IMG/VR virus record: IMGVR_UViG_3300048588_000101
Location: 1-41,537 of that record
Length of the DNA stretch: 41,537 nt
Strand: one strand, 5' to 3'
DNA from: a virus
The notes beneath the pieces are model-generated. The model made no database searches. It was not told where the DNA came from and saw only the letters and a program-made list of their open reading frames with translations. A program made the position numbers and the translations under genes. Shown in pieces: positions 4,799 to 11,899 of the stretch (positions are counted from its first letter, which is position 1; each line of letters opens with the position of its first letter).

Positions 4799-5454
4799 GC
4801 AGACCAGAAATCCAGTACATGCAGGTCAAGTTTGACCTCAAGGCCAGCGACAAAGCCGGCCGGATCAGCGGCATGGGCGCCGTGTTCGGCAACATCGATG
4901 AAGGATTCGACGTGATCCATCCCGGCGCCTTCACCGACAGCCTGAAGCGCCAGCGCCCGCTGATGCTGTGGCAGCACGGGTTTACCGACGACCCGGTCGG
5001 CGTGTGGGACAGCGTCGAAGAAACCGATGAAGGACTGGCGGTCGACGGCACGATGGTGTTGGTCAGCGACCAGGCGAAGCAACGGCATGCCCTGCTGAAA
5101 GCCGGCGCCCTCACCGGCCTGAGCATCGGCTACACCATCGACGAAGCCCGTTATGACGACAGCAACGTCCGGCACCTTTTCAAGCTGGATTTGTGGGAAG
5201 TCAGCGTGGTGAATTTTCCGATGAATCGGGAAGCAAGAATTTCCGCCGTAAAAGGGATGGCCGGATATAATCGTCTCCCAACGCCACGCCAAACTGAGTC
5301 GCTCCTGCGGGATGCAGGGTGGTCACCAGCACAAGCCAAGGCGCTGATAACCGGCGGGTACGAAGGTCTCAAGGCCGAGTTTCCCGACCGCATGGATAGA
5401 ACGGCCAGCGAGGAATTGCTGGTCGCCATCAACGCAGCAAGAGGAATTTTGTGA
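4795..5454 (+). CDS. Prohead protease (HK97 family, S78)
   Basis: A 219-residue maturation protease that would process the capsid precursor inside the prohead. Motifs include MLWQHGF (near base 4965), containing the conserved His, and TGLSIGY (near base 5115), containing the nucleophilic Ser. LWEVSVVNFPMN (near base 5190) is also typical of the family. The GTG start overlaps the portal stop. The C-terminal part, after about residue 145, is a helical extension with a Mu I-like 'RDAGWSPAQAKALI' segment. Order portal-protease-capsid is standard for HK97-type phages. Confidence 0.92.
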   Translation: MSRPEIQYMQVKFDLKASDKAGRISGMGAVFGNIDEGFDVIHPGAFTDSLKRQRPLMLWQHGFTDDPVGVWDSVEETDEGLAVDGTMVLVSDQAKQRHALLKAGALTGLSIGYTIDEARYDDSNVRHLFKLDLWEVSVVNFPMNREARISAVKGMAGYNRLPTPRQTESLLRDAGWSPAQAKALITGGYEGLKAEFPDRMDRTASEELLVAINAARGIL

Positions 5455-6746
5455 TGGACCAGAAAGCAGTCAAAGAGGCCATCGAGGCGCTGGGCCACGA
5501 TTGGCAGGAGTTCAAATCGGCGAACGATGCCCTGCTCAAGGCGAAGGCCGACGGCAAGTCGGTGGCCGAGCTGGAAAGCAAGGTCGACCGCATCAACAGC
5601 GCGATCACCGATGCCGAGGCCCGCAAGGCCGCGGCCGAGGCCGACCGCAAGAGCCTGATCGAGCGGATCGACCAGCTGGAAGCCAGTCTGCAGAACCACA
5701 AGCCGGGTTCCGCGGGCGACCAGGCCAAGGCCAAGCACCGGCAGCTGTTCGACGCATTCCTGCGCAGCAAATCCAACAGCAGCGTCGCCGCCCGCGAATT
5801 GGGCGCCTTCGAGCAGACACCAGAAGGTAAGGCGATCTCGACGGCAGCCGGCGTTACCGGTGGCTATGCGGTGCCGGAGGAAATCAGCCGCATGATCAAC
5901 GAGCAGGAAAACCTGCTGTCGCCGATGCGCAACCTGGTCAAGGTGGTGCAGGCCGGCACGCCCGACTACAAGGAACTGGTCGCGGTGCACAACACGCACG
6001 GCGGCGGGTGGGTAGGCGAAACCGATAGTCGCACGGAAACCGGCACCGCCGGCCTGCGCGAACGGGCGCCGACCTTTGGCATGCTTTATGCCTACCCGAA
6101 AGCGACCGAGGAATCGCTCGACGATATGTTCTTTAACGTCGGGCAGTTCCTGGTCGACCACACCAGCCTCACCTTCAGCCAGCTGGAAGGCATCGCCATC
6201 CTGACGGGCAACGGCACCAAAAAGCCGACGGGCATCCTGAACACCGCGCCGGTCACCACCGACGACGATGCGTCGCCGGAACGGGCCGCCAGTGCGCTGG
6301 AATACATCCCGCTGGCGCCGGGCACCAGCCCGAGCGGCGTGATCACGGCCGACGGCCTCACCGATCTGTGCTACGGCCTGCGGGCCGGGTACCGGAACGG
6401 CGCGTCCTGGGCCATGAACACCCTGACCCAGGGCCGCGTGCGCAAGCTGAAGGACACGACCAACAACTACCTGTGGCAGCCCGGCCTCGCCGCCGGCCAG
6501 CCGTCGACCCTGCTGGGTTACACGGTAAACACGATGGAGGATCTCGCCAACGCGGCGCTGAACGCCATCCCGGTCCTGTTCGGCAACTTCCGCCGCGGTT
6601 ACGTGCTGGTTGACCTGGTCGGGTTCCGCATCACCGTCGACGAAGTGACCACGCCCGGCTACGTGAAGTGGTACCTGCGCCGGCGCGTCGGCGGCATCGT
6701 GCTCGACAACTACGCGATCAAGGCCGGCAAGTGCGTCGCCGCGTAA
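5454..6746 (+). CDS. Major capsid protein (HK97 fold)
   Basis: A 430-residue precursor. Residues 1 to about 85 are a charged coiled coil resembling the HK97 delta scaffolding domain, normally removed by the protease encoded just upstream. The HK97-fold part follows, with TAAGVTGGYAVPEEIS, the central GNGTKKPTGIL loop and the C-terminal GNFRRGYVLVDLVGFRITVDE. The ATG at 5454 overlaps the protease stop and has GAGGAA seven bases upstream; the GTG at 5451 is an alternative. A strong terminator follows, so this probably closes the head transcription unit. Confidence 0.95.
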   Translation: MDQKAVKEAIEALGHDWQEFKSANDALLKAKADGKSVAELESKVDRINSAITDAEARKAAAEADRKSLIERIDQLEASLQNHKPGSAGDQAKAKHRQLFDAFLRSKSNSSVAARELGAFEQTPEGKAISTAAGVTGGYAVPEEISRMINEQENLLSPMRNLVKVVQAGTPDYKELVAVHNTHGGGWVGETDSRTETGTAGLRERAPTFGMLYAYPKATEESLDDMFFNVGQFLVDHTSLTFSQLEGIAILTGNGTKKPTGILNTAPVTTDDDASPERAASALEYIPLAPGTSPSGVITADGLTDLCYGLRAGYRNGASWAMNTLTQGRVRKLKDTTNNYLWQPGLAAGQPSTLLGYTVNTMEDLANAALNAIPVLFGNFRRGYVLVDLVGFRITVDEVTTPGYVKWYLRRRVGGIVLDNYAIKAGKCVAA

Positions 6747-6778: not shown

Positions 6779-6816
6779 CCGCCGCCGAGCGTTAAAGTTC
6801 GGCGGCGGTTTTTTTT
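6779..6816 (+). terminator. Rho-independent terminator after capsid gene
   Basis: A perfect 10-bp GC stem, CCGCCGCCGA (6779-6788) pairing with TCGGCGGCGG (6799-6808), with a 10-base loop, is followed directly by eight T residues. It lies 33 bases after the capsid stop. It would limit expression of the following accessory cassette relative to the highly expressed capsid. Confidence 0.93.
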
Positions 6817-6828
6817 GGAGTTCGCCGC

Positions 6829-7116
6829 ATGCGCATATTTTTTACCCGCCGGTTCCACGGCAGCCCGGATGGCGGCAGAAGCGTCAAAACCTACCGGCCC
6901 GGCCGCACCTACACGGTGCCGGGCGACATCCCGGCCGACCTGGCCGCCGCCGCCCTGAAAACCGGCAGCGCGAAGCAAGGGAACCACACCGATCCGCTGC
7001 CACCCGTCACCAACACCCTCGACGACACCACCACCCGGCGCGGCAAGCGCCCACCCGACAACAAGGCGCACCAGAATGCACCACCGAACAAATCCGCTGG
7101 CCGGCTGGAAACCTGA
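6829..7116 (+). CDS. Small head-region protein, unknown function
   Basis: A 95-residue protein directly after the capsid terminator. Residues 1-50 (KTYRPGRTYTVPGDIPADLAA) resemble short proteins often found after capsid genes in siphoviruses. The C-terminal half is polar and disordered-looking (TTRRGKRPPDNKA). No enzymatic motif or membrane segment is visible. It overlaps the next gene by 41 bases. A minor head or decoration role is only suggested by position. Confidence 0.7.
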   Translation: MRIFFTRRFHGSPDGGRSVKTYRPGRTYTVPGDIPADLAAAALKTGSAKQGNHTDPLPPVTNTLDDTTTRRGKRPPDNKAHQNAPPNKSAGRLET

Positions 7117-7753
7117 CAGCACGGCGGTACTGATCGCCAGCGGGCCGAGCCTGACGCCGGCGCAGATCGAATACATCAGGCCACGCCGCGCCTTCGGCGA
7201 TTTGTGGGTGGGCGGCGTGAACGACGCCTACCGCATTTGCCATTTCCTCGACCTGCTGTATGCCGCCGACTACGGATGGTGGCTGCACCACGCCGACGAC
7301 CTGCAGGTGGCACCGTGGACCGTCAAAGCGTGCTACGTGCCGGCCGCGGCCGAGGGCCGCGAGGATCCGGGCCAGGCAATCACCGCCCTGCGCGAGCGCC
7401 TCGACCTGCGGTGCATTCCCGGCCGGCAGGCGCCCGGCATCAGCCTCGACCCGGCCGCGGTCCACCTCGGCCAGCATTCCGGGTTTCAGCTGATCAACAT
7501 CGCCATACAGGCCGGCGCCAAGCGGATCGCCCTGCTCGGATTCGATTACCGGTTGGCCGATGACGGCGCCCGGCATTGGTTCGGTGACCACCCGGACCAC
7601 CTGAACCGCGACAGCCCATACCAGCGGTTTATGTACGAACTGGAGCACGCCGCGCCAGGCATCGCCGCCGCCGGCGTCGAGGTGATCAACTGCAGCCCAG
7701 GCAGCGCCCTGCGGTGCTTCCGCCAGGCCCGCCTCGAGGATGCCATCGAGTGA
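7076..7753 (+). CDS. DUF115/Maf-like putative glycosyltransferase, copy 1
   Basis: A 225-residue protein resembling the DUF115 superfamily, which includes flagellin glycosyltransferases (Maf), MptE-like pterin pyrophosphokinases and relatives of GT42 sialyltransferases. The nucleotide-binding signature AVLIASGPSLT lies at about residues 18-28. HSGFQLINIAIQAGAKRIAL with LGFDYRL around residues 140-165 is the second conserved block, and the C-terminal INCSPGSALRCF closes the domain. The adjacent gene is a paralogue with the same blocks. The substrate cannot be read from sequence; a sugar or activated cofactor transferase is likely. It is the first gene of a six-gene cassette with ATGA/GTGA overlaps between capsid and connector genes. 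Confidence 0.72.
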   Translation: MHHRTNPLAGWKPDSTAVLIASGPSLTPAQIEYIRPRRAFGDLWVGGVNDAYRICHFLDLLYAADYGWWLHHADDLQVAPWTVKACYVPAAAEGREDPGQAITALRERLDLRCIPGRQAPGISLDPAAVHLGQHSGFQLINIAIQAGAKRIALLGFDYRLADDGARHWFGDHPDHLNRDSPYQRFMYELEHAAPGIAAAGVEVINCSPGSALRCFRQARLEDAIE

Positions 7754-8400
7754 TCCCGCGAAAGTATCCGGGCGCCACCGGCATCGTGGTCGGCACCGGG
7801 CCGAGCATCACCGACGCCGACATCGAGGCGATCCGGGCCGCCCGCCAGGCCGACCGGGGGCGGGTATTCGCCGCCAACCGCGCCCACGAGTTTGTGCCGG
7901 CCGACGTGATCCACGGCTGCAATTACCAATTCTGGCACCGCTGGTGGCCAGACCTGCGCGATCACCCGGCCGACCGATGGACCACGCGCCCGGAGCTGGA
8001 AGGGATATACCCAGGCCTCGAGTACATCGCCGAGCGATGGGAGCCGGGTCTTTCCCGCGACCCGGCATGGATTGCCGCTCACCACGGCACCGGGCCGCAG
8101 CTGGTCAACATCGCGTACCTGTACGGCTGCACCCGCCTGCTGTTGGTCGGATGGGACATGCGGTTTCATGGCAAGCAGGACAACCGCACCTACGTCACCC
8201 GGCGCTACCTCGGCGAGGATGACCTGACGCTGCAGCATTGGCCACGCACCGGGCCGAACGGCGAACTGGAGGGGCTGATCCGCGAGATGGAGACCATCCG
8301 TCCGGCCGAGTACGGTATCGAGATAATCAACTGCACGCCAGGCAGTGCCCTGCGCTGTTTCCCGTTCATGGAGATCGACCGTGCGCTTGCGACACCCTGA
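7750..8400 (+). CDS. DUF115/Maf-like putative glycosyltransferase, copy 2
   Basis: A 216-residue paralogue of the preceding gene. Shared blocks are GIVVGTGPSITDADIEAI near the N-terminus, GPQLVNIAYLYGCTRLLLVG with WDMRFHGKQDNRT in the middle, and the C-terminal INCTPGSALRCFPF. The GTG at 7750 overlaps the stop of copy 1 (GTGA), making it a better start than the upstream in-frame ATG at 7714, which lies in copy 1. Divergence between the copies is large outside the blocks, so different substrates are plausible. Expected to act in the cytoplasm on nucleotide-activated donors. Confidence 0.72.
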   Translation: MIPRKYPGATGIVVGTGPSITDADIEAIRAARQADRGRVFAANRAHEFVPADVIHGCNYQFWHRWWPDLRDHPADRWTTRPELEGIYPGLEYIAERWEPGLSRDPAWIAAHHGTGPQLVNIAYLYGCTRLLLVGWDMRFHGKQDNRTYVTRRYLGEDDLTLQHWPRTGPNGELEGLIREMETIRPAEYGIEIINCTPGSALRCFPFMEIDRALATP

Positions 8401-9346
8401 AGTTCGCTACGAGGTCACCGACCATTGCAACGCCCGGTGCATCATGTGCCCGCGGGACAAGCACGACCGGCCGCACGGCATCATGGACACCGCCGCCTAC
8501 TGCCGGAGCATCGATGAGGTCGCCGCGATGGGCGCAACCCAAGTGGTTCTCACCGGCTTTGGCGAACCCATGCTGGACGTCGACCTGTCCCGCAAAATCA
8601 GCTACGCCAGCGAGGCCGGCCTGCGCACCTACATCATCAGCAACGCGTCGGCGCTGACCGAGGCCAAGGCGACCGACCTGCTGCGCGCCGGCCTGAGCGA
8701 GCTGCGTGTTTCGTTTTACGGCATGCGCCCGGAGACATACGGCGCGGTGATGTCGGGGCTGGACTACTACCGAGCCACCGAAAACCTGCGCACCTTCCTG
8801 CGCGTGCGGGCCGAGATGGGCGCCGCCTGCAAGCTGCAGATGAGCTACCTGGTGCTGCCGCAGAACGCCAGCGACACCGAGCGGTTCCGCGAGTATTGGG
8901 AACCGCTGGTCGACGCCATCGAGATATGGCGCCCGCACAACTTCGGCGACGGCAGGCATTACCGCAAGCGCACGCTGACCAAGCGCAGCTGCGGACGGCC
9001 AGACAACGGGCCGCTGCAGATCCAGTGGGACGGCACCGTGGTGCCGTGTTGCTACGATTACAACAACGCCATGCCGCTGGGTAACGCCTTCCGCCAGCCG
9101 ATCGCAGAGATCCTGACCGGGCCGGCGTACTACGACCTGCGCGACGCCCACAAAAAAGGCGAGTTCCACCGCGTTCCGTATTGCGACCAATGCGACCAGC
9201 TGCTCGAGCACCCGGACGCCCTGGTTTACAGCAACCGGCACGACCTGCCGCCGGCCGAGGCGGTGCAACTGAGCAACACCGATCTCTACAACCTCGACCA
9301 GGGCCGCCCGATAGACCCGGCGCGCACCAAAGGAAAACAACCATGA
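8381..9346 (+). CDS. Radical SAM/SPASM domain protein
   Basis: A 321-residue iron-sulfur enzyme. The radical SAM cluster motif CNARCIMC (Cys16, Cys20, Cys23) is near the N-terminus, followed by the TGFGEPMLD block that contacts SAM. The C-terminal part is a SPASM-like auxiliary cluster domain: IQWDGTVVPCCYDYNN, then PLGNAFRQPIAEI, and finally PYCDQCDQL. SPASM enzymes modify peptides, proteins or sugar-nucleotides using a 5'-deoxyadenosyl radical. The GTG at 8381 has GGAG seven bases upstream and overlaps the preceding gene by 20 bases. Such an enzyme inside a phage structural operon is unusual; its substrate is unknown. Confidence 0.88.
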   Translation: MRLRHPEVRYEVTDHCNARCIMCPRDKHDRPHGIMDTAAYCRSIDEVAAMGATQVVLTGFGEPMLDVDLSRKISYASEAGLRTYIISNASALTEAKATDLLRAGLSELRVSFYGMRPETYGAVMSGLDYYRATENLRTFLRVRAEMGAACKLQMSYLVLPQNASDTERFREYWEPLVDAIEIWRPHNFGDGRHYRKRTLTKRSCGRPDNGPLQIQWDGTVVPCCYDYNNAMPLGNAFRQPIAEILTGPAYYDLRDAHKKGEFHRVPYCDQCDQLLEHPDALVYSNRHDLPPAEAVQLSNTDLYNLDQGRPIDPARTKGKQP

Positions 9347-9879
9347 GCGACATCGTCGGCGACCGCGAAAAATTCAGCCGGGGCTGGCAGAGCGGCATGC
9401 CGGAAACGCCGTGCGGATCAGGATCAACCATGGCGCGAACAGCCGCACAACGCGCCTGGCTGCCGGGCATGCTGCAGCGGCATGGCGTGCGCAGCATCGC
9501 CGACATCGGCGCCGGCGACCTGAACTGGATCCAGGCCACGGCCATCCCGGCTGGCGTGGCGTACACCGCATACGACCTGGTGCCGCGCCACCCGCGGGTG
9601 CGCGCCTTCGACCTGGTGACCGACATGCCGCCCGCCGTTGACCTGATCATGTGCCTGTGGGTGGTCAACCATTTGCCCTACGAGGCCGCCCGCAAGGCCA
9701 TCGCCAACCTCCGGGCCAGTGGCGCCAGGCTGCTGCTGATGACCGACCGGCCACGCTGGCACCACGAACAGCCGCCTGAGATCCACATGCCGTACATAGA
9801 AAAGCTGGACCTCGGCACCGATGCCGGTGACCGCCTGCTGCTGATCAGCCTGGCCGACCAGGCCGCGCCGCCATGCTGA
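9343..9879 (+). CDS. Class I SAM-dependent methyltransferase-like protein
   Basis: A 178-residue protein with a Rossmann-type methyltransferase core. Motif I reads SIADIGAGDLNWI at about residues 49-61, followed by an acidic strand end (AYDLVPRHPRV), then DLIMCLWVVNHLP as motif IV/V, typical of small-molecule or sugar methyltransferases. The N-terminus has a conserved-looking EKFSRGWQSGMPETPCG. It overlaps the radical SAM stop by four bases. It is shorter than most family members and lacks a clear substrate-binding domain. Confidence 0.78.
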   Translation: MSDIVGDREKFSRGWQSGMPETPCGSGSTMARTAAQRAWLPGMLQRHGVRSIADIGAGDLNWIQATAIPAGVAYTAYDLVPRHPRVRAFDLVTDMPPAVDLIMCLWVVNHLPYEAARKAIANLRASGARLLLMTDRPRWHHEQPPEIHMPYIEKLDLGTDAGDRLLLISLADQAAPPC

Positions 9880-10508
9880 CGGTGTGGGCGGTTCAGGTCG
9901 GCGAAAAGTACCCGCCGCATTACCTGCACAAGCTGCACAAAGCCGTGGCGCGCAACCTGCGCCAGCCGTTCGCGTTCGAAGTGCTGACCGACAACCCGGC
10001 GGCCGTTCCCGGTAAGGCGCACGCGCCAGACACCGCGCTGTGGGGATGGTGGCAGAAAACCGCCCTCTTCCACCTCACGCGGGACCAGCCGCCAACCCAC
10101 CAGAACCTGTACATCGACCTCGACAGCGTGATCGTGGGCGGCCTGGACGCGATGCTGGAGGCCCACCGCGGCGACCGCCTCGCCATGCCGGCGAATTGGG
10201 CACAAAGCGGCCACGGTGGCTGCCAGAGCAGCGTCATGATTTGGGCCGGTGGTGCGTACCCGGAGATCCGCGACGACCTGACCAGCGCCACCGCGACCGG
10301 CCTATGGGGCGACCAGGAGTGGATCACCATGCTTCTAGGCCAGCCAGGCCAGGGCAAGGTGGCCGCGATCGCGCACCCGACCGTGGTCAGCTACAAGTAT
10401 CACTGCCGGGAGACCGGCCAGCCGCCCGCCGGCGCCGCCATTGTGACCTTCCACGGCAAGCCCGACCCGCACGAGGTCGACGACAGCTGGGTGCGGGCAT
10501 GCTGGTAA
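9873..10508 (+). CDS. GT-A-like glycosyltransferase
   Basis: A 211-residue protein resembling GT8/GT32-type glycosyltransferases. The DxD-like metal/nucleotide-sugar motif is in LYIDLDSVIVGG (residues about 84-95). It is preceded by ALWGWWQKTALFHL, a pattern common in phage and bacterial glycosyltransferases of this type, and followed by SSVMIWAGG and WGDQEWITMLL acceptor-site-like blocks. The C-terminal IVTFHGKPDPHEV is also characteristic. No membrane segment is seen, so it is probably cytoplasmic. It overlaps the methyltransferase by seven bases. Donor and acceptor unknown. Confidence 0.78.
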   Translation: MLTVWAVQVGEKYPPHYLHKLHKAVARNLRQPFAFEVLTDNPAAVPGKAHAPDTALWGWWQKTALFHLTRDQPPTHQNLYIDLDSVIVGGLDAMLEAHRGDRLAMPANWAQSGHGGCQSSVMIWAGGAYPEIRDDLTSATATGLWGDQEWITMLLGQPGQGKVAAIAHPTVVSYKYHCRETGQPPAGAAIVTFHGKPDPHEVDDSWVRACW

Positions 10509-11260
10509 TCGTTCACGTCAACCCGAAGCAGCCGCACCAGGTCCGCCAGGCGCTGGAGTTCGCCAGCGGCCTGGACCGGCACGGCATCAACCGGATCGTG
10601 ACGCCGCAAGTAGACCTGGCCGGCGACGTGCACGTTTGCCTGGGGCCGAATTACGCGCTGCAGGCGTGGCAGAACCACCCGCGCACGATCCTGCTCGATC
10701 GGTGCTTTTACGGCGGCGAAAACACACATGTCACGCTCGGGTGGACCAGGCCGGGCGGCGGACGCCGGTTCCCGGCCGGCGACGACCGACGATGGCGGGC
10801 CAGCGGCCAGCAACTGGCACCGTTAAGGCGGACCAGTGGAAGCGCCATCTTCCTCGATGACTACGGCGGCGACAGCCACCGCGCCAGCGCGGTGATTCGT
10901 GAGTTGCGGGCGCACCACCACGTCGTCGGCTATCGAGGCCACCCGCGCCAGGAGCTCTGGCACACCAGCCCGGTCGACCGATGGGATGCACCGCACGACC
11001 TCGAGGCGGCGCTGGCCGCGCACGACACCGCCGCCGGCTACCTGACCAGCGCCCTGGTCGTTGCCGGCCTGCGCGGCCTGCACCTGATCGCCATGCATCC
11101 CGGCAGCATCGCCGCCCGCTGGCGCGCCGACGACCGGCAACGATGGGCGCATGCGGTCGCCTGGGCGAATTGGGCCGAAACGGAAATCGGCACCGGCGAT
11201 GCGATCGCGTGGCTGATGGCAACCGAACAGGAACCCGCCGACCCGGCGGCGGCCTGCTAA
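10499..11260 (+). CDS. Unknown protein, possible GT-B-type transferase
   Basis: A 253-residue protein ending the accessory cassette. The ATG at 10499 overlaps the preceding gene by ten bases. The N-terminal MLVIVHVNPKQPHQVRQAL and the later segment YLTSALVVAGLRGLHLIAMHPGS suggest two Rossmann-like halves, as in GT-B transferases such as CDP-glycerol transferase-like or capsule-synthesis-like proteins. No decisive catalytic motif is seen, so this assignment rests on fold-like pattern and on its glycosyltransferase neighbour. The product is well conserved in codon use with its neighbours and is not a shadow frame. Confidence 0.6.
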   Translation: MLVIVHVNPKQPHQVRQALEFASGLDRHGINRIVTPQVDLAGDVHVCLGPNYALQAWQNHPRTILLDRCFYGGENTHVTLGWTRPGGGRRFPAGDDRRWRASGQQLAPLRRTSGSAIFLDDYGGDSHRASAVIRELRAHHHVVGYRGHPRQELWHTSPVDRWDAPHDLEAALAAHDTAAGYLTSALVVAGLRGLHLIAMHPGSIAARWRADDRQRWAHAVAWANWAETEIGTGDAIAWLMATEQEPADPAAAC

Positions 11261-11290: not shown

Positions 11291-11899
11291 ATGGCACAAT
11301 GGCAACAGACCGCACCAGCCGCCAACCCGGTGACGCTGACAGAGGCGCTGGCATTCCTGCGCGTCGAGGCCGAAAGCCCGGCCACCGCCAGCCAGGCGCT
11401 GATCGAGAGCCAGATCGCCGCGGCCACCGCCTGGGCCGAGGGATTCACCCGCCGCGCATTTATTCACCAGACCTGGAAAATCACCCTGCCAGCATTCCCG
11501 GCCGGAAGTGACGCCATCGAGTTACCCCTCGGCAAGGCCGCCAGCATTCAGCGCATCGAATACATCACGCCAGCCGGCGCGACCATGACCATGACCGGCC
11601 CGAGCAGCAGCCCGGCCGGCGCCGGGTTCCGCGAATACCTGGCAAGCCCGCAGGGCAGCATGCTGCTGCCGGCCCGTGGCGCCACCTGGCCGGCGACCAT
11701 CGACGACGAACCGGCCGCGGTCACCGTGACCTTTGTCGCCGGCTACGGCGCCGGGCCATCGACCGTGCCCGAACCGATCCGGCACGCGATCCTGTACCGG
11801 CTGGCCGACCTGTACGATAACCGCGGCAGCGGCGACGGCACCTGGACCGACGTGGCCGCCGTGACGCTGCGCCCGTATGCCCTGCGGGATCAGCAATGA
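11291..11899 (+). CDS. Head-tail connector (gp6-like)
   Basis: A 202-residue adaptor predicted to bind the portal ring in the neck. The N-terminal PVTLTEALAFLRVEAES, then IESQIAAATAWAEGFTRRAFI, is the helical signature of phage gp6-type connectors (HK97 gp6 / phiE125 gp8). The C-terminal half is beta-rich with the conserved AVTVTFVAGYG and IRHAILYRLADLYDNRG. Connector genes follow immediately in the normal order. A 30-base gap separates it from the accessory cassette. Confidence 0.85.
   Translation: MAQWQQTAPAANPVTLTEALAFLRVEAESPATASQALIESQIAAATAWAEGFTRRAFIHQTWKITLPAFPAGSDAIELPLGKAASIQRIEYITPAGATMTMTGPSSSPAGAGFREYLASPQGSMLLPARGATWPATIDDEPAAVTVTFVAGYGAGPSTVPEPIRHAILYRLADLYDNRGSGDGTWTDVAAVTLRPYALRDQQ

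Follow-up and report, generated by a model that had tools for sequence, protein, structure and literature searches.

A conserved Maf-like cassette in the head operon of HK97-type phages, with a radical SAM branch, as a predicted system of virion glycosylation

Introduction

Virion glycosylation has so far been proven for a few actinobacteriophages only, among them mycobacteriophages, in which glycosylation of the capsid by phage-encoded transferases was demonstrated (Freeman et al., 2023, as cited in PMC11256854). Among bacterial proteins, Maf transfers a sugar onto flagellin in the cytoplasm (PMC4065374). Also, genes named pmgO and pmgQ, or their counterparts, are already annotated in phages P1, P7 and D3. 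Here, we report on a cassette of six genes located in the head operon of an HK97-type phage, carried by a viral contig of 41,537 nucleotides (IMG/VR record IMGVR_UViG_3300048588_000101, the whole of which was analyzed and is called the window hereafter). The cassette encodes two proteins of the Maf/GT42 fold (PmgO1 and PmgO2), a radical S-adenosylmethionine (SAM) enzyme, a methyltransferase and two further glycosyltransferases (GT). With a probability that we put at about 0.6, it builds a short glycan on a protein of the phage head, in the host cytoplasm, late in infection and in the manner of Maf.

Results

Enzymes encoded by the cassette

The enzyme classes of the six genes can be stated with high confidence. 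A first-pass annotation had proposed, from motifs, two Maf-like proteins, a radical SAM/SPASM enzyme, a SAM-dependent methyltransferase, a GT-A-like protein with a DxD motif and a possible GT-B protein, and each of these assignments was upheld by the profile and structure searches described below and in Table 1.

The AlphaFold2 (AF2) model of PmgO2 (pLDDT 96.6) gave as its best match in the VIA structure search the Maf flagellin glycosyltransferase 5mu5 (Z 15.7, 187 residues, 3.5 Å), followed by the cytidine monophosphate (CMP)-sialyltransferases Cst-I (Z 12.1) and Cst-II (Z in the range 11-12), and a Foldseek E-value of 5e-6 was in line with this fold. A profile built from 45 PmgO proteins matched the GT42 sialyltransferases Cst-I (E 9.7e-5) and also Cst-II, and phrog_4603, which is matched by both PmgO1 and PmgO2, is labelled alpha-2,3-sialyltransferase. 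Residues G17, S19, L132, G134, D136 and N194 (PmgO2 numbering) are invariant in the PmgO alignment. The column of the CstII SHY motif, whose His we take to be the catalytic base, holds a His in 39 of the 45 rows and in PmgO1, and an Arg in the PmgO2 of the window. The label DUF115, also given to both proteins by the first-pass annotation, proved right in direction, as PF01973 (MptE-like/DUF115) does match them, but the scores of 18.1 and 23.0 bits lie under the curated cut-off of 34.6.

The product of the third gene contains the radical SAM domain PF04055 (4e-12) and the SPASM domain PF13186 (1e-14). The CxxxCxxC motif and the auxiliary cysteines 204/223/268/271 are kept in 11 phage homologues, the N-terminal triad being absent from one truncated row only. 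By profile search, its closest solved relatives were BtrN (4m7s, E 6e-20), DesII (1e-10) and BlsE (4e-8), which in every case perform sugar or aminocyclitol chemistry, and the four auxiliary cysteines align with C169/C187/C232/C235 of BtrN. The nearest chromosomal relatives of this gene (60-65% identity, in Betaproteobacteria and others) are located in surface-polysaccharide clusters; in one of them, L031, the gene order is radical SAM enzyme, GT-like protein of 565 amino acids (aa), RmlD, PseB-like protein, DegT and NeuB. Of 14 close loci, 9 have a gene for the 565-aa protein near that of the radical SAM enzyme, and a profile search with this protein gave no solved relative. This conserved partner occurs in L031, L039 and other chromosomal loci, and some of the clusters contain NeuB or SIS-CBS genes.

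From its family match, we infer that the methyltransferase is of the small-molecule or sugar type. In the GT-A protein, the DLD and FHG motifs are invariant; its profile matched the GT8 structures 5gvv (1e-5) and Gat1 6mw5 (3e-5), as well as glycogenins (about 0.01), and the protein by itself had no Pfam GT8 match. It is homologous to P1 PmgQ and P7 HdmD, as found by tblastn. The last open reading frame (ORF) had no match in the sequence libraries, and its profile gave nothing meaningful against the Protein Data Bank by sequence, but the fold search did give matches: its AF2 model, with two domains and a pLDDT of 82, retrieved transferases of 3-deoxy-D-manno-octulosonic acid (Kdo) in all of the top 14 VIA entries (WbbB/KrkA/KpsC, Z 9.4-11.4), the next row having a Z of 7.5. 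This predicted two-domain GT-B fold is closest to the GT99/GT107 Kdo transferases, and R-HP is invariant in the alignment of the family (A3). The match concerns a modelled fold, and fold is not function.

Recurrence of the module in other phages

A search for co-occurrence, which the first-pass annotation had suggested as a check, revealed that the module recurs: the core PmgO-PmgO-(methyltransferase)-GT8-GTB was found at the same position of the head operon in about 50 viral contigs. The GT8 gene lies directly upstream of the last gene in 69 of the 81 non-redundant contigs that have this last gene. Considering the 52 of these 81 loci with at least 4 kb of upstream sequence, GT8 was present in 50, exactly two PmgO in 44, head genes in 43, the methyltransferase in 33 and the radical SAM gene in 9. 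On the other side, a connector follows the last gene in 59 of the 71 contigs having downstream sequence. The gene order is kept even among phages that share only about 24-38% identity in their capsid, terminase and portal proteins; in these contigs, PmgO2 and the radical SAM enzyme are far better conserved, with identities of about 47-70%. All six genes of the window are under purifying selection (dN/dS 0.12-0.34 against the closest contig, L007). This selection, together with the gene order conserved between phages with diverged structural proteins, argues that the cassette is not a chance assembly.

The radical SAM gene was found in 10 of the 81 contigs. Its place in the cassette, as first annotated, is thus real in the window and belongs to a minority branch, this gene being an add-on and no fixed part of the module. 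It also occurs 3' of the major capsid protein (MCP) gene in at least two other phage groups, the podovirus-like L013 group and the L076 group. In the podovirus-like L013, L068, L070 and L017, it comes directly after the MCP and small virion genes and precedes P0007, a conserved gene with a product of about 250 aa; this product resembles PmgO by eye, but the hhalign comparison with PmgO was not significant, and we do not claim it as a PmgO. Other tailoring genes vary as well, and include a FkbM methyltransferase, a GT8 with an epimerase, a weak sulfotransferase match and another methyltransferase.

In contigs with the closest capsids, PmgO lies within 2.5 kb after the MCP in 54 of 62, a biased sample as these contigs were chosen via cassette-bearing capsids. 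In phages lacking the cassette (VW-6S, ST64B, PARCL1pr, ST101-KPC2phi6.3), the MCP and connector genes are separated by no more than one small gene. In D3, PAJU2 and Psp6, PmgO is accompanied by a methyltransferase and a protein of 275 aa. Some long ORFs, of about 640-790 aa and located in L155, L157, L162, L163, L136, L145, L171 and L152, are matched by both the PmgO and the GT8-type profiles, and fusions of the two domains appear to exist. At the nucleotide level, the cassette had no match among known phages. As a module it is widespread, and relatives of its PmgO and GT8 genes are annotated in P1, D3 and S20.

The small protein next to PmgO1

A 95-aa protein is encoded between the MCP and PmgO1. 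It had no family match in library scans, and no homologue was found by tblastn in known phages. Its basic, probably disordered tail carries PPDNK and APPNKS, which are variants of an (A)PENK motif present in 26 of 52 related loci of the capsid clade of the window, against 0.5 expected. The small-protein tail of many contigs, otherwise variable and basic, contains the motif SxSQPAPASxKKT; a profile trained on one half of the set scored 7.5 on the other half and -3.7 (sd 0.68) on shuffles. For SASQ, a test with a fixed regex was weaker than this profile test. The motif SxSQPAPASxKKT is absent from three PmgO-less phages and present in Psp6. As a marker of PmgO within the capsid clade of the window it was rejected, since it did not separate contigs with PmgO from those without. 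It is possible that the PENK codons serve ribosome binding, at least partly, but their synonymous variation counts against such a role. We regard the 95-aa protein, as a lead, as a candidate glycan acceptor or docking peptide.

Organization of the locus

All six ORFs are present, and neighbours share 4 to 20 bp, as read on the sequence. The claim of a six-gene accessory cassette inside the head operon therefore stands, with overlapping ORFs placed between the MCP and the connector (Table 1). Reading of the sequence revealed, 3' of the MCP gene and at about 6785-6815, an inverted repeat rich in GC with a T8 run behind it; an automated scan did not list this repeat, probably because its loop exceeds 8. 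A promoter search between positions 6500 and 11700 gave none of the sigma-70-like type.

Table 1. Features of the head operon around the cassette.
Feature	Position	Strand	Evidence and remarks
HK97-type major capsid protein (MCP)	5451..6746	+	PF05065 (Phage_capsid) E 6.7e-61, phrog_10; cassette downstream
Small 95-aa protein, basic tail	6829..7116	+	ORF; overlaps pmgO1 by 41 nt
PmgO1, Maf/GT42-fold glycosyltransferase	7076..7753	+	phrog_4603 8e-33; profile vs Cst-I/II
PmgO2, Maf/GT42-fold protein, GTG start	7750..8400	+	phrog_4603 1e-16; AF2 model, VIA
Radical SAM/SPASM enzyme (twitch-type), BtrN-like, GTG start	8381..9346	+	PF04055, PF13186; BtrN 4m7s
SAM-dependent methyltransferase	9343..9879	+	phrog_3382 2e-26
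GT8-type GT-A glycosyltransferase	9873..10508	+	phrog_1962 3e-18; tblastn PmgQ; PDB GT8 matches
GT-B glycosyltransferase, Kdo-transferase fold	10499..11260	+	AF2 model; VIA
Head-tail connector (gp6-like), right-hand edge of the cassette	11291..11899	+	PF05135 0.0014, phrog_442 1.5e-23

Compared with L007, the MCP, the small ORF and pmgO1 are 99% identical, and the genes from pmgO2 to the last one 78-91%. The identity falls sharply from pmgO1 (99%) to pmgO2 (83%), within positions 7076-8400, and we place a recombination boundary between these two genes because of this fall. Such a pattern suggests exchange of the outer cassette, with pmgO1 remaining linked to the capsid and the small protein. 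Elsewhere in the window, a ParB_N match and a N6_N4 DNA methylase match were noted among the ORFs outside the cassette (probably ORF 39-1394).

Discussion

Support for the glycan-building role of the cassette is strong. We propose that PmgO1, a stand-alone Maf/GT42 domain, would move a CMP-activated ulosonic acid to a Ser/Thr (or Asn) residue of a head protein, most likely the MCP or the adjoining 95-aa protein. The glycan would then be extended by PmgO2, by the GT8 enzyme and by the Kdo-transferase-like GT-B protein; the BtrN-like radical SAM enzyme would oxidize or otherwise remodel one sugar, and the methyltransferase would cap the chain. Other phages would obtain a changed coat by swapping genes for tailoring enzymes, namely a FkbM methyltransferase, a GT8, an epimerase and perhaps a sulfotransferase, and the purpose may be to shield the virion or to tune adsorption. 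The order of the steps and the purpose are speculative. A donor of the ulosonic-acid type (Kdo or a nonulosonic acid) is favoured with moderate confidence, because Cst-I/II and the Kdo transferases alike use CMP-ulosonic acids. No gene of CMP-sugar biosynthesis was found in the Pfam scan of the window ORFs; the donor must thus come from the host, presumably from its pool of CMP-Kdo or, in hosts able to produce it, of a nonulosonic acid. That a virion protein is the acceptor, a reading drawn from gene position, is also held with moderate confidence. A more specific version, in which a Maf-type enzyme reads a tail motif ((A)PENK or SxSQPAPASxKKT) of the small protein, the heads of a widespread and so far unrecognised class of tailed phages bear an O-glycan of ulosonic type, and BtrN-like remodelling in one branch yields the first viral glycan tailored by a radical SAM enzyme, is tentative, and we would sooner expect it to fail in some part than to hold as a whole.

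Several observations weigh against glycosylation of the head. The acceptor is deduced from the position of the genes, and a late-operon position would also suit modification of lipopolysaccharide (LPS) or of DNA. The lack of a CMP-sugar gene in the window goes in the same direction, as do PmgO-like genes located elsewhere in some giant phages, where the linkage to head genes is not universal. Also, PmgO2, with an Arg in the column of the presumed base, may be altered or inactive.

The same enzymes could instead alter sugars of the LPS core or O-antigen from the cytoplasmic side, late in infection, so that the progeny does not stick to debris or superinfection is blocked. The Kdo and sialyl transferases retrieved as structural matches usually act on LPS or capsule, as their titles indicate, the chromosomal relatives of the radical SAM gene belong to polysaccharide clusters, and prophage-borne tailoring of a capsule by nonulosonic acid is known (epaA/epaB, PMC12053666). 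Nevertheless, Pfam placed none of the six cassette proteins in a family of membrane proteins, flippases or ligases, the module sits within the head operon of many unrelated contigs and not near lysogeny genes, and the nearest fold is that of Maf, a protein glycosyltransferase; we therefore consider a change of the host surface unlikely. Alternatively, the radical SAM protein could modify a peptide, for example the 95-aa head protein, in the way of SPASM maturases of ribosomally synthesized and post-translationally modified peptides, the sugar enzymes having a separate task. It does match SPASM maturase models (StsB 3e-20), and in podovirus-like contigs its gene follows the MCP and two small virion genes. 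However, BtrN and DesII score better by profile among solved proteins, a single auxiliary cluster with the Cys spacing of BtrN is present, and the polysaccharide setting of its relatives speaks for sugars, which makes a peptide substrate improbable. Decoration of the bases of the phage genome as a defence against restriction appears very improbable. Many phage glycosyltransferases do act in this way (for example PMC12838424), and the window encodes one DNA methylase (PF01555), but a Pfam scan of the 31 other ORFs of the window revealed neither a pyrimidine hydroxymethylase nor a TET/JBP or deazaguanine gene, DNA is not a known substrate of GT42/Maf or of Kdo transferases, and the cassette lies among head genes rather than replication genes.

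If glycosylation of a head protein by the cassette is confirmed, glycosylated virions would be common among HK97-type phages, through Maf/Kdo-transferase chemistry. This would explain pmgO-Q, long listed in coliphage P1 as putative genes of morphogenesis, as well as orf7 of D3, and all of these would become directly testable in laboratory phages. Remodelling of the coat glycan of a virus by a radical SAM enzyme would be new as well. In the open-access literature (subscription papers were outside the scope), we found no description of a function for the PmgO/PmgQ genes, of the module or of a radical SAM partner, in agreement with the initial impression that the combination with a radical SAM enzyme was not a described phage system.

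Comparison with known systems

The cassette shares features with several known systems. The Maf/FlmG-type O-glycosylation of flagellin (Maf 5mu5, Aeromonas Maf1) has the same fold as PmgO, and in both cases the sugar is proposed to be transferred in the cytoplasm onto a structural protein that polymerises; PmgO differs as a single domain of about 220 aa, borne by phages and adjoining capsid genes. With Cst-I and Cst-II of GT42, PmgO aligns over the GxGPS motif, the SG...A..G...L.G.D block and the His column, but the sequence similarity is weak and at family level (E about 1e-4), and PmgO2 lacks this His. The last ORF resembles KpsC, WbbB and KrkA by its predicted GT-B fold, whereas it is only about 10% identical to them and 253 aa long. 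Similarly, the radical SAM core and the twitch auxiliary cysteines align with those of BtrN, the 2-deoxy-scyllo-inosamine dehydrogenase; unlike BtrN, the enzyme of the window sits in a phage operon.

Among phages, P1 (pmgO/pmgP/pmgQ), P7 (hdmB/C/D) and D3 (orf7/orf13) encode homologues of the PmgO and GT8 proteins, which in P1 and P7 are annotated under head morphogenesis and in D3 adjoin head genes, but with no radical SAM or GT-B partner. PmgP of P1 also belongs to the PmgO family (1.5e-28), which gives P1 two PmgO and a GT8 homologue; the order in P7 and P1 (L001/L002) is pmgN-pmgO-pmgP-ppp-pmgQ, with a protein phosphatase gene in between. In Tetraselmis viridis virus S20, the interval from MCP to head closure holds two PmgO, a methyltransferase, a GT8-type gene and additional GT-like and FkbM-cluster genes; this virus differs by another set of tailoring genes, without radical SAM. 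As for the mycobacteriophages, they infect Actinobacteria and, as far as is known, use other enzymes, the GT genes of the relative Maravista lying near the genome end. Taken together, we regard the cassette as a conserved variant of Maf-like protein glycosylation, of which the radical SAM branch is novel.

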